Below are positions 36,209 to 38,907 of a DNA stretch of 64,000 bases, piece after piece. How positions within the stretch are numbered: position 1 is the stretch's first letter; each line of letters begins with the position of its first letter. Source of the DNA: Candidatus Bathyarchaeota archaeon (GTDB lineage: Archaea; Thermoproteota; Bathyarchaeia; JAPDIZ01). Both the position numbers and the translations under genes were made by a program. The notes under the pieces were generated by a model. It searched no databases. It had not been told where the DNA came from and worked only from the letters and a program-made list of their open reading frames with translations. The stretch is from assembly GCA_029259355.1 (NCBI GenBank), contig JAPDIZ010000002.1:558001-622000 (forward strand), given 5' to 3'.

Positions 36209-36820
36209 ATGGAAGACAAAATGGGAGTATTCGTGGAGAAGCTGTTGAGTTGGCACAAGAAACGCAGCAGGAGCTTTAGCTGGAGAAAGGAGACCAACAC
36301 CTACTCCATCGCGGTTGCTGCTGTGTTGCTCAGGCGCACCCGTGCAGAGATGGTTGAGCCAATCTACGAAGAGATTATGCGCAGGTGGCCATCGCCTCAT
36401 CAGCTCGCTGAGGCAAGCGAAGAAGAACTTCAGCAACTACTCAAGCCCATAGGGCTTTTCCGCGGAAGAGCTAGAGAGCTGAGGGAAATAGGTGGGTTCC
36501 TAGCTGAAGGAGGTGATTGGGCCCATCCGCCCAAGGGAATAGGCCCATACGCTCTATCCATCATCAGGTGCTTTGCGCTGGGTCAGCCAGCTCTCGCAAT
36601 AGACTCCAACGTGAGGAGGGTCTTGTCTAGGGTGTTTGGAAGCGAGGAAGCGACCGCTTTGTTGGAGAAACTTGTTAGCGGAATGGGGGTTGAAGAAGCG
36701 CGTAGGCTCAACTTATCGCTGATTGACTTCGGCGCGCTTGTCTGTAAACCTAGGTTACCTAGGTGTGGAGAATGCCCGTTGAGGCGTTTGTGTAGCTGGT
36801 TCGAGAAAAACCTAGGGTAG
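36209..36820 (+). CDS. HhH-GPD DNA glycosylase with [4Fe-4S] loop, MutY/MIG-like
   Basis: Base-excision repair enzyme, about 203 residues. WHKKRSRSFSWRKETNTYSIAVAAVLLRRTRAEMVEPIY is the MutY/mismatch-glycosylase start; the hairpin GIGPYALSII and catalytic Asp in AIDSNVRRVLSRVFG follow; the cluster ligands are CKPRLPRCGECPLRRLC (C-x6-C-x2-C-x5-C). The hairpin lacks the catalytic lysine of endonuclease III, favouring an A/G or T/G mismatch glycosylase. ATG 36209 is chosen over 36179. The MutY C-terminal domain is absent. Confidence 0.85.
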   Translation: MEDKMGVFVEKLLSWHKKRSRSFSWRKETNTYSIAVAAVLLRRTRAEMVEPIYEEIMRRWPSPHQLAEASEEELQQLLKPIGLFRGRARELREIGGFLAEGGDWAHPPKGIGPYALSIIRCFALGQPALAIDSNVRRVLSRVFGSEEATALLEKLVSGMGVEEARRLNLSLIDFGALVCKPRLPRCGECPLRRLCSWFEKNLG

Positions 36821-36822
36821 CT

Positions 36823-36957
36823 CTACTCCTCAAACCACTCCTCTTCCTCTTCTTCCCAAAACTCCTCCTCTTCTCCCTCTTCCTCCCAAAACTCCTCTTC
36901 TCCCCACTCCTCTTCCTCTTCTTCCCACTCTTCCTCCCATTCCTCTTCCTTTATCAT
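36823..36957 (-). CDS. Hyperacidic Glu/Trp microprotein, 44 residues
   Basis: ATG 36955-36957 to TAG 36823-36825. The product is 30 Glu, 6 Trp, 3 Phe, 2 Gly and an N-terminal MIK; Trp or Phe-Trp recur every 4-11 residues between runs of Glu, with two copies of a GEEEEFW-like unit. Predicted net charge is near -29. It has an SD-like GGGGGGAG six bases before the ATG and a perfect-looking TATA box about 45 bases upstream, so I regard it as expressed. No family is known to me; DNA-mimic, histone/ribosome chaperone or metal binding are speculation. Confidence 0.7.
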   Translation of the reverse strand: MIKEEEWEEEWEEEEEEWGEEEFWEEEGEEEEFWEEEEEEWFEE

Positions 36958-37000
36958 CGGCTAACTCCCCCCAGAGCCGATTGGTGCAGAGAAAGCTGAA

Positions 37001-37010
37001 GTATATATCG
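37001..37010 (-). promoter_or_regulatory. TATA box for the Glu/Trp microprotein gene
   Basis: CGATATATAC on the minus strand, about 45-50 bases upstream of the ATG, which predicts a leader of about 20 bases containing the SD. Confidence 0.6.
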
Positions 37011-37084: not shown

Positions 37085-37094
37085 CTTATATAAG
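37085..37094 (+). promoter_or_regulatory. TATA box for the PIN-domain ATPase gene
   Basis: CTTATATAAG, centred about 33 bases before ATG 37123. With normal archaeal spacing the transcript would start within a few bases of the start codon, so the mRNA is probably leaderless or nearly so; no SD is present. Confidence 0.65.
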
Positions 37095-37122: not shown

Positions 37123-38907
37123 ATGGAGTTGGCTGAGAAGAAGTACGTCCCCGACACCAGCGCAGTAATCGAGAAGGTGGTTTCGAAGCTGATTAAGGAG
37201 GGGAGGGTATCGGGAAAGCTGCTCATACACCGAGCGGTAGTTTCGGAGCTCGAGATGCAAGCCAACAGAGGTAGAGAGGTCGGCTTCATAGGGCTGGATG
37301 AGCTCAAGAAGGTACAGCAGCTGGCTGAGGAGAGCGATGGAGCAATTTCGGTCGAGGTTTTTGGCGAGAGACCCACCGAGTCGCAGATTAGGCTGGCGAG
37401 AGCAGGGGAGATAGACGCCCTTATACGCGATGACGCGTGGAGGATTGGCGCTACCCTTATCACCTGCGACCGCGTGCAAGCAGAGACTGCGCTGGCTATG
37501 GGAGTTGACACCATCTACATAAAGCCTAGGCGGAGGAAGAAGGGGCTTTTCCTCGACAAGTTCTTCGACTCTAACACCATGTCAGTGCACCTAAAGGAGG
37601 GAACAATCCCCTACGCCAAGAAGGGCGTTCCCGGCAGATGGGAGATGGCCCCCCTCTCAAACCGAGTGCTGACGAAAGCTGATATGGAGCGGTATGTGAG
37701 GCAGATCATCAGCGCAGCAAAAGCTGGGGGAAACGGCTTTGTCGAAAGCGAGAGACGGTGGTCAACCATCGTCCAGCTTGGGGAGTATAGAGTAGTTGTG
37801 GTTAAGCCGCCTCTCTCCGATGGGCTCGAGATAACGGTTACTCGCCCCTTAACCCACCTCGAGCTCGAAGACTACAAGCTACACCCCAAGCTCATCAAGA
37901 GGCTCGAGACGCAGGCTGAGGGAATCTTGATAGCGGGAGCTCCCGGAATGGGCAAAACAACCTTTGCCGAAGCCTTAGCCAGATTCTACGAGAGGAAAGG
38001 GAAAACCGTCAAGACAGTGGAGTCTCCTAGAGACCTACACCTCCCAGACGACGTAACTCAGTACTCCAAGAGCCACGCCGCCCCTGGCGAAATCCACGAC
38101 ATCTTGCTTCTCTCTAGGCCAGACTATACCGTGTTCGACGAAATGAGAACCTCTGAAGACTTCGCGCTGTTTGCAGACATGAGGCTTGCTGGAGTTGGGA
38201 TGATCGGCGTCGTCCACGCAACAACGCCCATAGACGCCATCCAGAGGATGATAGGAAGGATAGAGCTGGGGGTAATTCCCTCAATCATAGACACTGTGAT
38301 CTTCATAGAGAACGGCGAGGTTTCGAAGGTCTACGAGCTTACGAGAGCAGTTAAGGTCCCAACCGGCATGACTGAGCGCGACCTAGCTAGGCCAGTGGTG
38401 GAGGTAAGAGACTTCATAACAGGCGAGCTCGAGTACGAGATATACACCTTTGGCGAGCAAACTCACGTCATTCCAGTCAGGAGCTGGGAGCAGTCAGCGA
38501 GCGAGTTTGCGGAGAAGGTTTCGGAAGTTGTTCCGGGAGCAAGAGTTGAAGTGTTTGGAAAAAGAGCGAAGGTCTACATCCCAGAGGAGATGGCCACCAG
38601 AGGCGTTTTCAGAAGGCTTAAGAGGCTCGGCAGAGCTCATGGCGTACGCGTCGACGTAGCTACGTCTGAGGGAGAAGAGGTTACGCTTCCCTACGAGCTT
38701 AGAGATGAGGGCGATGCGGTAATCATAGACCTAGGCAAGGGTTTCGCTGGAGCAAGGGTGGCGCTTTATGGAGGAGGCAGGAAGCTAACTTCCGCCAAAG
38801 CAGATCAGAGTGGAAAGATCAGGTTGTCGAAGAAGAGGGGAGCTGGTAAGAAGGTGTTGAGGCTAGTGGATATGGGTGAAAACATCGAGGTGAGGCTAAG
38901 GAGCTAA
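37123..38907 (+). CDS. PINc/VapC-type ATPase (PIN, PilT-like ATPase and KH domains)
   Basis: Conserved archaeal multidomain protein, 594 residues. An N-terminal PIN nuclease-like domain (VPDTSAVIEKVVSKL, later EIDALIRDDAWRIGATLITCDR with acidic residues) is followed by a PilT/GspE-like ATPase with Walker A GAPGMGKTTFAEALA at about residue 272 and Walker B-like YTVFDEMRTSEDF, then a KH-type RNA-binding segment near 460-530 (VYIPEEMATRGVFRRLKRLG) and a small C-terminal beta domain. Role is probably RNA processing or ribosome-linked quality control; not established. Confidence 0.88.
   Translation: MELAEKKYVPDTSAVIEKVVSKLIKEGRVSGKLLIHRAVVSELEMQANRGREVGFIGLDELKKVQQLAEESDGAISVEVFGERPTESQIRLARAGEIDALIRDDAWRIGATLITCDRVQAETALAMGVDTIYIKPRRRKKGLFLDKFFDSNTMSVHLKEGTIPYAKKGVPGRWEMAPLSNRVLTKADMERYVRQIISAAKAGGNGFVESERRWSTIVQLGEYRVVVVKPPLSDGLEITVTRPLTHLELEDYKLHPKLIKRLETQAEGILIAGAPGMGKTTFAEALARFYERKGKTVKTVESPRDLHLPDDVTQYSKSHAAPGEIHDILLLSRPDYTVFDEMRTSEDFALFADMRLAGVGMIGVVHATTPIDAIQRMIGRIELGVIPSIIDTVIFIENGEVSKVYELTRAVKVPTGMTERDLARPVVEVRDFITGELEYEIYTFGEQTHVIPVRSWEQSASEFAEKVSEVVPGARVEVFGKRAKVYIPEEMATRGVFRRLKRLGRAHGVRVDVATSEGEEVTLPYELRDEGDAVIIDLGKGFAGARVALYGGGRKLTSAKADQSGKIRLSKKRGAGKKVLRLVDMGENIEVRLRS

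Follow-up and report, generated by a model that had tools for sequence, protein, structure and literature searches.

An acidic, tryptophan-rich microprotein ORF of an archaeal genome and its probable family, most often encoded beside ABCE1

The microprotein ORF and its setting

Between the genes for a MutY/Nth-like glycosylase and a PINA-type PIN/ATPase, the window analysed here (the whole 64-kb stretch of the host genome, designated G000) carries a small ORF whose predicted product is rich in glutamate and tryptophan and which is referred to below as EW (Table 1). No co-directional gene follows this ORF, the adjacent gene on that side being convergent. The glycosylase possesses a C-terminal C-x6-C-x2-C-x5-C arrangement, read by eye as a [4Fe-4S]-type motif, and its match to the Pfam model EndIII_4Fe-2S reached an E-value of only 0.016, which is below the cut-off. 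The divergent neighbour was also found by the PINA model (E 3e-176), at a level below the cut-off of that model. Rfam gave no match in the 64-kb window and no tRNA was found in it.

Table 1. Positions of features in the window and of zinc-domain proteins with E/W-rich tails at other loci
Feature	Position	Strand	Remarks
HhH-GPD glycosylase, MutY/Nth-like	36209..36820	+	convergent neighbour; its stop and that of the EW ORF are 2 nt apart
EW microprotein ORF	36823..36957	-	MIKEEEWEEEWEEEEEEWGEEEFWEEEGEEEEFWEEEEEEWFEE; 44 aa, stop TAG
In-frame TAG	36961..36963	-	two codons 5' of the ATG of the EW ORF; read from sequence
SD-like GGGGGGAG (GGGGAG)	36965..36972	-	GGAG core 36965-36968, 7 nt before ATG
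Presumed TATA box (TATATAT) for the EW ORF	37002..37008	-	about 48 nt before ATG
Presumed TATA box (TTATATAAG) for the PINA gene	37086..37094	+	distinct from the box of the EW ORF
PINA-type PIN/ATPase	37123..38907	+	divergent neighbour; NF010335, E 2.7e-223
Zn domain with EW tail	L185, L186, L187, L188 (about 2420-2740)	-	also L210:2041-2316; CDICG..CSQCG..CDECGD..CYDCL, CPICD..CPSCG

The composition of the peptide is as described in the initial annotation: its 44 residues comprise 30 Glu (68%), six Trp and three Phe, together with two Gly and one each of Met, Ile and Lys, which gives a net charge of approx. -29 (30 Glu, 1 Lys). The description of the tryptophans as regularly placed was too strong, the steps from one Trp to the next being 4, 7, 6, 10 and 7 residues. 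The C-terminus reads EEWFEE and thus, unlike that of typical members of the family described below, has no aromatic terminal residue; a deca-GX3 motif is absent from the sequence. An N-terminal extension can be dismissed because of the in-frame stop two codons before the ATG, and transcription is predicted to begin near position 36978. The span originally assigned to the feature, 36823-37010, does contain the ORF, which itself ends at 36957, the remainder including the promoter. Sites of the type TATATA are rare in the window (three sites, or six counts on both strands, at a G+C content of 54%), and two of the three fall in the intergenic region between the EW ORF and the PINA gene, one for each gene.

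The ORF coincides with the sole 120-nt stretch of at least 83% purine or pyrimidine within the window. It contains imperfect tandem repeats of 30 and 48 bp. Its strand is 87% purine and it is located where the convergent glycosylase gene ends, both of which could suit non-coding polypurine/polypyrimidine DNA, such as a terminator or a triplex-forming tract, with an accidental ORF. The Glu codons are 18 GAG and 12 GAA. The all-purine codons depart from GAG by an A/G change 17 times, 14 of them at the third codon position (p = 5e-5), a bias that points to selection on Glu and against a drifting purine tract. Variation is locked to the codon phase, and the peptide persists in relatives where D, S, G or K residues have broken up the purine tract. 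We have rejected a pure R.Y-tract origin on both grounds and regard non-coding DNA as a very improbable explanation. The ORF is most likely a real microprotein gene; the earlier view of a genuine short coding sequence with plausible start, SD and promoter, and not a stray purine tract, is borne out by the start signals and the bias towards the third codon position.

The position divergent from a PIN/ATPase gene, to which attention had been drawn, is correct, and the neighbour is of the PINA type. That this position is meaningful finds no support: an E/W ORF was found near only one of 80 PINA loci (L074, approx. 2.8 kb off), most such ORFs lie at ABCE1, and a linkage to PINA was rejected. The ORF in question (L074:8310-8525), in a genome of the Desulfurococcales and approx. 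2.8 kb downstream of PINA, has 71 codons and no terminal Trp.

A family of EW microproteins

A protein search with the window peptide in 31 relatives returned only the peptide itself. Such a search is blind to relatives, since low-complexity sequence defeats homology search, and a search at the level of DNA succeeded. The pattern used was DNA encoding W-E-E-x(0-5)-W-E-E-E, with the same pattern reversed as control. It matched at one place in G000, where reversed controls gave zero, in 101 of 257 genomes of the host's class and in 173 of the 398 sampled genomes of the phylum, with reversed controls near zero in both samples; the background of the strict pattern derived from the controls is approx. 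1% of genomes. The genomes compared with G000 include none nearer than the same class. According to the match lists, most genomes have a single locus and a few have two. Outside the phylum, the pattern was found in two of 60 genomes of the phylum to which L077, a Thermoplasmata record, belongs, and there was no match in the DPANN or euryarchaeal records tried. At the sensitivity of the DNA pattern, the family thus looks restricted to the phylum.

We define the family as ORFs of approx. 20-60 aa with more than about 60% acidic residues and several Trp separated by acidic runs. The collection comprises 161 ORFs from 45 families of genomes, mostly of 20-60 aa (examples are MIFEEEDEWEEGEDEEWEEEEW, MSKRKTPPKEEEEEEEEWEEEWGEEDWEEEEEWEEEEEEW and MVVYLEEEWWEEEEEEWEEEEEWWEEEEEW), and has an overall composition of E 0.56, D 0.055 and W 0.13. 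The terminal residue is Trp in 141 and Phe in eight ORFs (149 of 161 aromatic); by majority it is Trp in 39 of the 45 families and Trp or Phe in 42, with Trp making up only approx. 13% of residues. Exceptions occur in f18, f37, f42, f44, f50 and others. In aromatic-ended ORFs the penultimate residue, as judged by eye, is acidic, and the residue at -2 is Glu. A perfect GGAGGTGA is found 6-9 nt 5' of the start in many EW ORFs, and the fraction having it is a lower bound given that automatic choice of starts is imperfect.

In the 24 ABCE1-linked loci of family f6, variation over the last 15 codons amounts to 0.000, 0.000 and 0.157 at codon positions 1, 2 and 3; in the 45 nt past the stop of the same loci it is 0.54, 0.60 and 0.56. 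Selection acts on the EW protein. Where the strict DNA pattern was lacking from a genome, the region anchored on ABCE1 often contained a diverged version with D, S, G or K (for example, MAEDWEEEWSDEEWGEEEGEEEGWEEEEW and MEEEWEEDLEEEEWEDELDEDWEEEEW), and versions with D, S or G end in EEEEW. As such versions exist, a DNA-tract origin of the family is ruled out. The family is almost certainly real. It has no match in Pfam, NCBIfam or PDB (0 families, 0 chains), in agreement with the initial statement that no family of this make-up had been described, and no description of it was found in the openly accessible literature. Judged against the open literature and these three libraries, the family is undescribed.

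A relaxed form of the pattern, in which the third Glu codon was omitted, also picked up proteins with WEENNKR heptad repeats, which were excluded as unrelated. These occur in Desulfurococcales as long repeats, in several copies per genome (L241, L243, L246 and L247; genomes G596, G609 and G613), and can be confused with EW. In f5, f9 and f46, an EW segment is fused to a Zn domain, forming small zinc-finger or zinc-ribbon proteins with an E/W-rich C-terminal tail (Table 1).

Linkage to ABCE1 and the place of the window ORF

ABCE1/Rli1, the ribosome-recycling ATPase with two [4Fe-4S] clusters, is among the most conserved archaeal and eukaryotic proteins. Its gene, identified by NF009945 (E 1.7e-207) and Fer4_RLI, adjoins the EW gene in approx. 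33 of 45 families; counts are given per family because sampling within families is not independent. This number derives from 34 scripted families by adding f3 (L266), which had been missed, and by removing f35 and f45, whose hits are other ABC ATPases, as judged from stricter searches that gave no ABCE1 or from a neighbour resembling a different ABC transporter. Regions anchored on ABCE1 bias the sample toward linkage, and for families found by the DNA pattern alone a hand count gave approx. 27 of 45 linked. The initial annotation had proposed that E/W-rich peptides be sought in related genomes at the same locus: they form a large, phylum-wide family, which it had missed, but the genes lie mostly beside ABCE1 rather than at the PINA locus and their products mostly end in Trp.

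The commonest arrangement is an EW ORF upstream of ABCE1 and co-directional with it (107 of 161, usually at 50-150 nt); over the linked families the upstream distance is usually 50-500 nt. Approximately six ORFs, all of family f28, are divergent from ABCE1 at 0.46-0.75 kb (the scripted count was seven), and at some loci whole genes, such as one for a TFS-like zinc ribbon, stand between the two. The EW gene lies away from ABCE1 in about 12 families, and in f10, f36, f60, f65 and f66 the unlinked gene retains the terminal Trp. Within 1.5 kb of ABCE1, no EW ORF was found in f29, f39 and f61, which are large families of the phylum (L335, L336, L338-L341, L347), and in f29 none of the sampled genomes matched the pattern. 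The idea that a Trp or Phe ending of ABCE1 itself substitutes for a missing EW gene was rejected, no such pattern having been found.

Several further observations concern these regions. The order THUMP-like, Sua5-like, EW, TFS-like zinc ribbon, ABCE1 (by eye) recurs in L212, L213, L216, L224 and L225 and, annotated by eye, is a conserved translation and tRNA-modification neighbourhood. In some f6 genomes (L119, L123, L136, L138-L141), two short ORFs of about 70 and 135 aa separate the EW gene from ABCE1. The ABCE1 open frame in f35 (L349 and L352; genomes G278 and G264) extends over approx. 925 aa, compared with approx. 600, and is possibly an N-terminal fusion. In L211 (2053-2220), from a genome whose EW is not at ABCE1, the EW ORF is convergent with the gene for another translation factor, EF-2 (by eye).

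The window ORF probably belongs to this family. Its size, Glu content and Trp number fall within the definition, no other ORF of G000 has the strict E/W pattern, and the likeness extends to an MI- start and to a promoter and SD of its own. The ABCE1 gene of G000 is on another contig (C2:355555-356970) with no E/W ORF beside it; it adjoins a Sua5-like gene, with no EW ORF in the gap (by eye), and several other genomes have a Sua5-like gene and ABCE1 with the EW gene between or close to them (by eye). A second, Trp-terminated EW ORF was not found in G000, the sole [DE][DE][DE]W-stop match falling within a different ORF, in a frame other than its own. The window ORF itself lacks the C-terminal Trp or Phe and ends in WFEE. 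As copies in f37, f44 and f50 are also both unlinked to ABCE1 and not Trp-ended, it is an outlier with counterparts in other families, and the natural reading of the gene arrangement is that it may have been relocated away from ABCE1. It could instead be a look-alike that grew in place from a purine-rich repeat and is unrelated to the ABCE1-linked family, as the tandem repeats, the WFEE end, the distance from ABCE1 and the absence of near relatives among the compared genomes would allow. With the strict-pattern background at only about 1% of genomes, Glu-synonymous variation, a TATA box and SD of its own and no other such ORF in G000, we find this fairly unlikely.

Possible functions of the EW peptides

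The favoured account, to which we assign a probability of about 0.5, is that the window ORF is an outlying, relocated member of the family and that EW peptides are trans-acting partners of ABCE1, with Fe-S targeting as the most specific mechanism. Taken separately, a function of the family tied to ABCE1 is somewhat the likelier case, whereas the Fe-S mechanism, drawn by analogy, is tentative and has the odds against it, and for the window copy it would be less likely still.

The analogy is with Lto1 (ORAOV1) of the Yae1-Lto1 adaptor, which is likewise small and tied to ABCE1 and uses its C-terminal Trp to recruit the CIA targeting complex on behalf of Rli1 (PMC4523923). This Trp is essential in Lto1 and replaced by Phe in some organisms and, under the tripeptide rule of PMC10623007, follows an acidic residue, as in the EW family. 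Lto1 differs in having a deca-GX3 domain and a Yae1 partner, EW peptides being 20-60 aa of nearly pure Glu and Trp. An Lto1-like free aromatic carboxylate would be present in most of the family, but not in the window copy, which ends in FEE. The general CIA signal is [LIM]-[DES]-[WF]-COOH, and it was found to be absent from archaeal homologues of CIA clients (PMC10623007). Binding of the tripeptide is dominated by the aromatic side chain and the free carboxylate, and an appended DSG tripeptide abolishes recognition by the eukaryotic system in vitro (PMC13082141). The EW family resembles this signal in its aromatic end and acidic penultimate residue (by eye), and differs from it at -2, with Glu in place of Leu, Ile or Met; the window ORF does not have the motif.

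In the proposed mechanism, the acidic body of an EW peptide would dock on apo-ABCE1 or on basic surfaces of ABCE1, and an Fe-S delivery machinery with a carrier of the MIP18/DUF59 type, for which G000 has one gene (PF01883), would read the exposed Trp or Phe carboxylate. The peptide would thereby direct both [4Fe-4S] clusters to ABCE1, in the manner of the Lto1 Trp for yeast Rli1. We infer the binding to ABCE1, the delivery of Fe-S and an identical job for the WFEE-ended window copy; the non-hydrophobic Glu at -2, the approx. 12 unlinked families and the missing aromatic end of the window copy count against the model. In its most far-reaching form, EW peptides would be archaeal Fe-S targeting adaptors for ABCE1, in which the Trp-carboxylate code sits on a separate peptide of 20-60 residues encoded beside the client gene; the eukaryotic CIA tripeptide would either descend from this code or have arisen convergently. 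The copy in the window would then represent a variant that has departed from ABCE1 and might act on a different Fe-S client, for example the adjacent glycosylase. We consider this version rather unlikely.

The prevalence of co-directional ORFs upstream of ABCE1 could also point to a cis-acting leader (uORF), in which translation of an acidic, Trp-ended peptide destabilises or stalls ribosomes and couples ABCE1 expression to recycling capacity, the peptide itself having no job. Bacterial ribosomes become unstable on acidic nascent chains, and mgtB is regulated by a small ORF encoding an acidic peptide (PMC8092293); EW ORFs share with translation-aborting leaders of this MgtQ type their shortness, acidity and frequent position 5' of a gene that would be regulated, and a Trp codon directly before the stop could affect termination. 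Unlike such leaders, EW genes also occur divergent from ABCE1 (f28), separated from it by whole genes or, as in f10, f36, f60, f65 and f66, unlinked with the Trp end kept, and the window ORF has no target, the gene downstream being convergent. As the terminal Trp is kept in co-directional, divergent and unlinked arrangements, a trans-acting peptide is favoured, and the leader is an unlikely explanation.

Equally doubtful is a role as a cofactor of ribosome recycling. The peptide would bind to the 30S subunit or to ABCE1 while ribosomes are split or translation is initiated, in rough analogy to eIF3j/Hcr1, which is longer than the EW peptides and has acidic-Trp segments at its N-terminus. The linkage to ABCE1 and to other translation and tRNA-modification genes (by eye) would fit, as would the direct binding of eIF3j/Hcr1 to its partner ABCE1/RLI1 (PMC5737393). 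No sequence match links eIF3j/Hcr1 to EW, including in the PDB sequence search, where homology to solved structures was nil, and such a cofactor would leave the near-constant terminal Trp unexplained. The original proposal of a generic polyanion, acting as a chaperone of histones, ribosomal tails or polycations or as a mimic of nucleic acid, suits a charge of about -29 over 44 residues, but predicts neither the linkage to ABCE1 nor the strict length and near-invariant terminal Trp, and appears improbable.

Of the genomes sampled from the phylum, nearly half carry the family, which is under very strong selection and sits beside ABCE1, yet is missing from the curated libraries searched, presumably due to its tiny size and low complexity. 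If EW peptides serve ABCE1 maturation or ribosome recycling, both the source of the Fe-S clusters of archaeal ABCE1 and the origin of the eukaryotic C-terminal Trp code would become testable.
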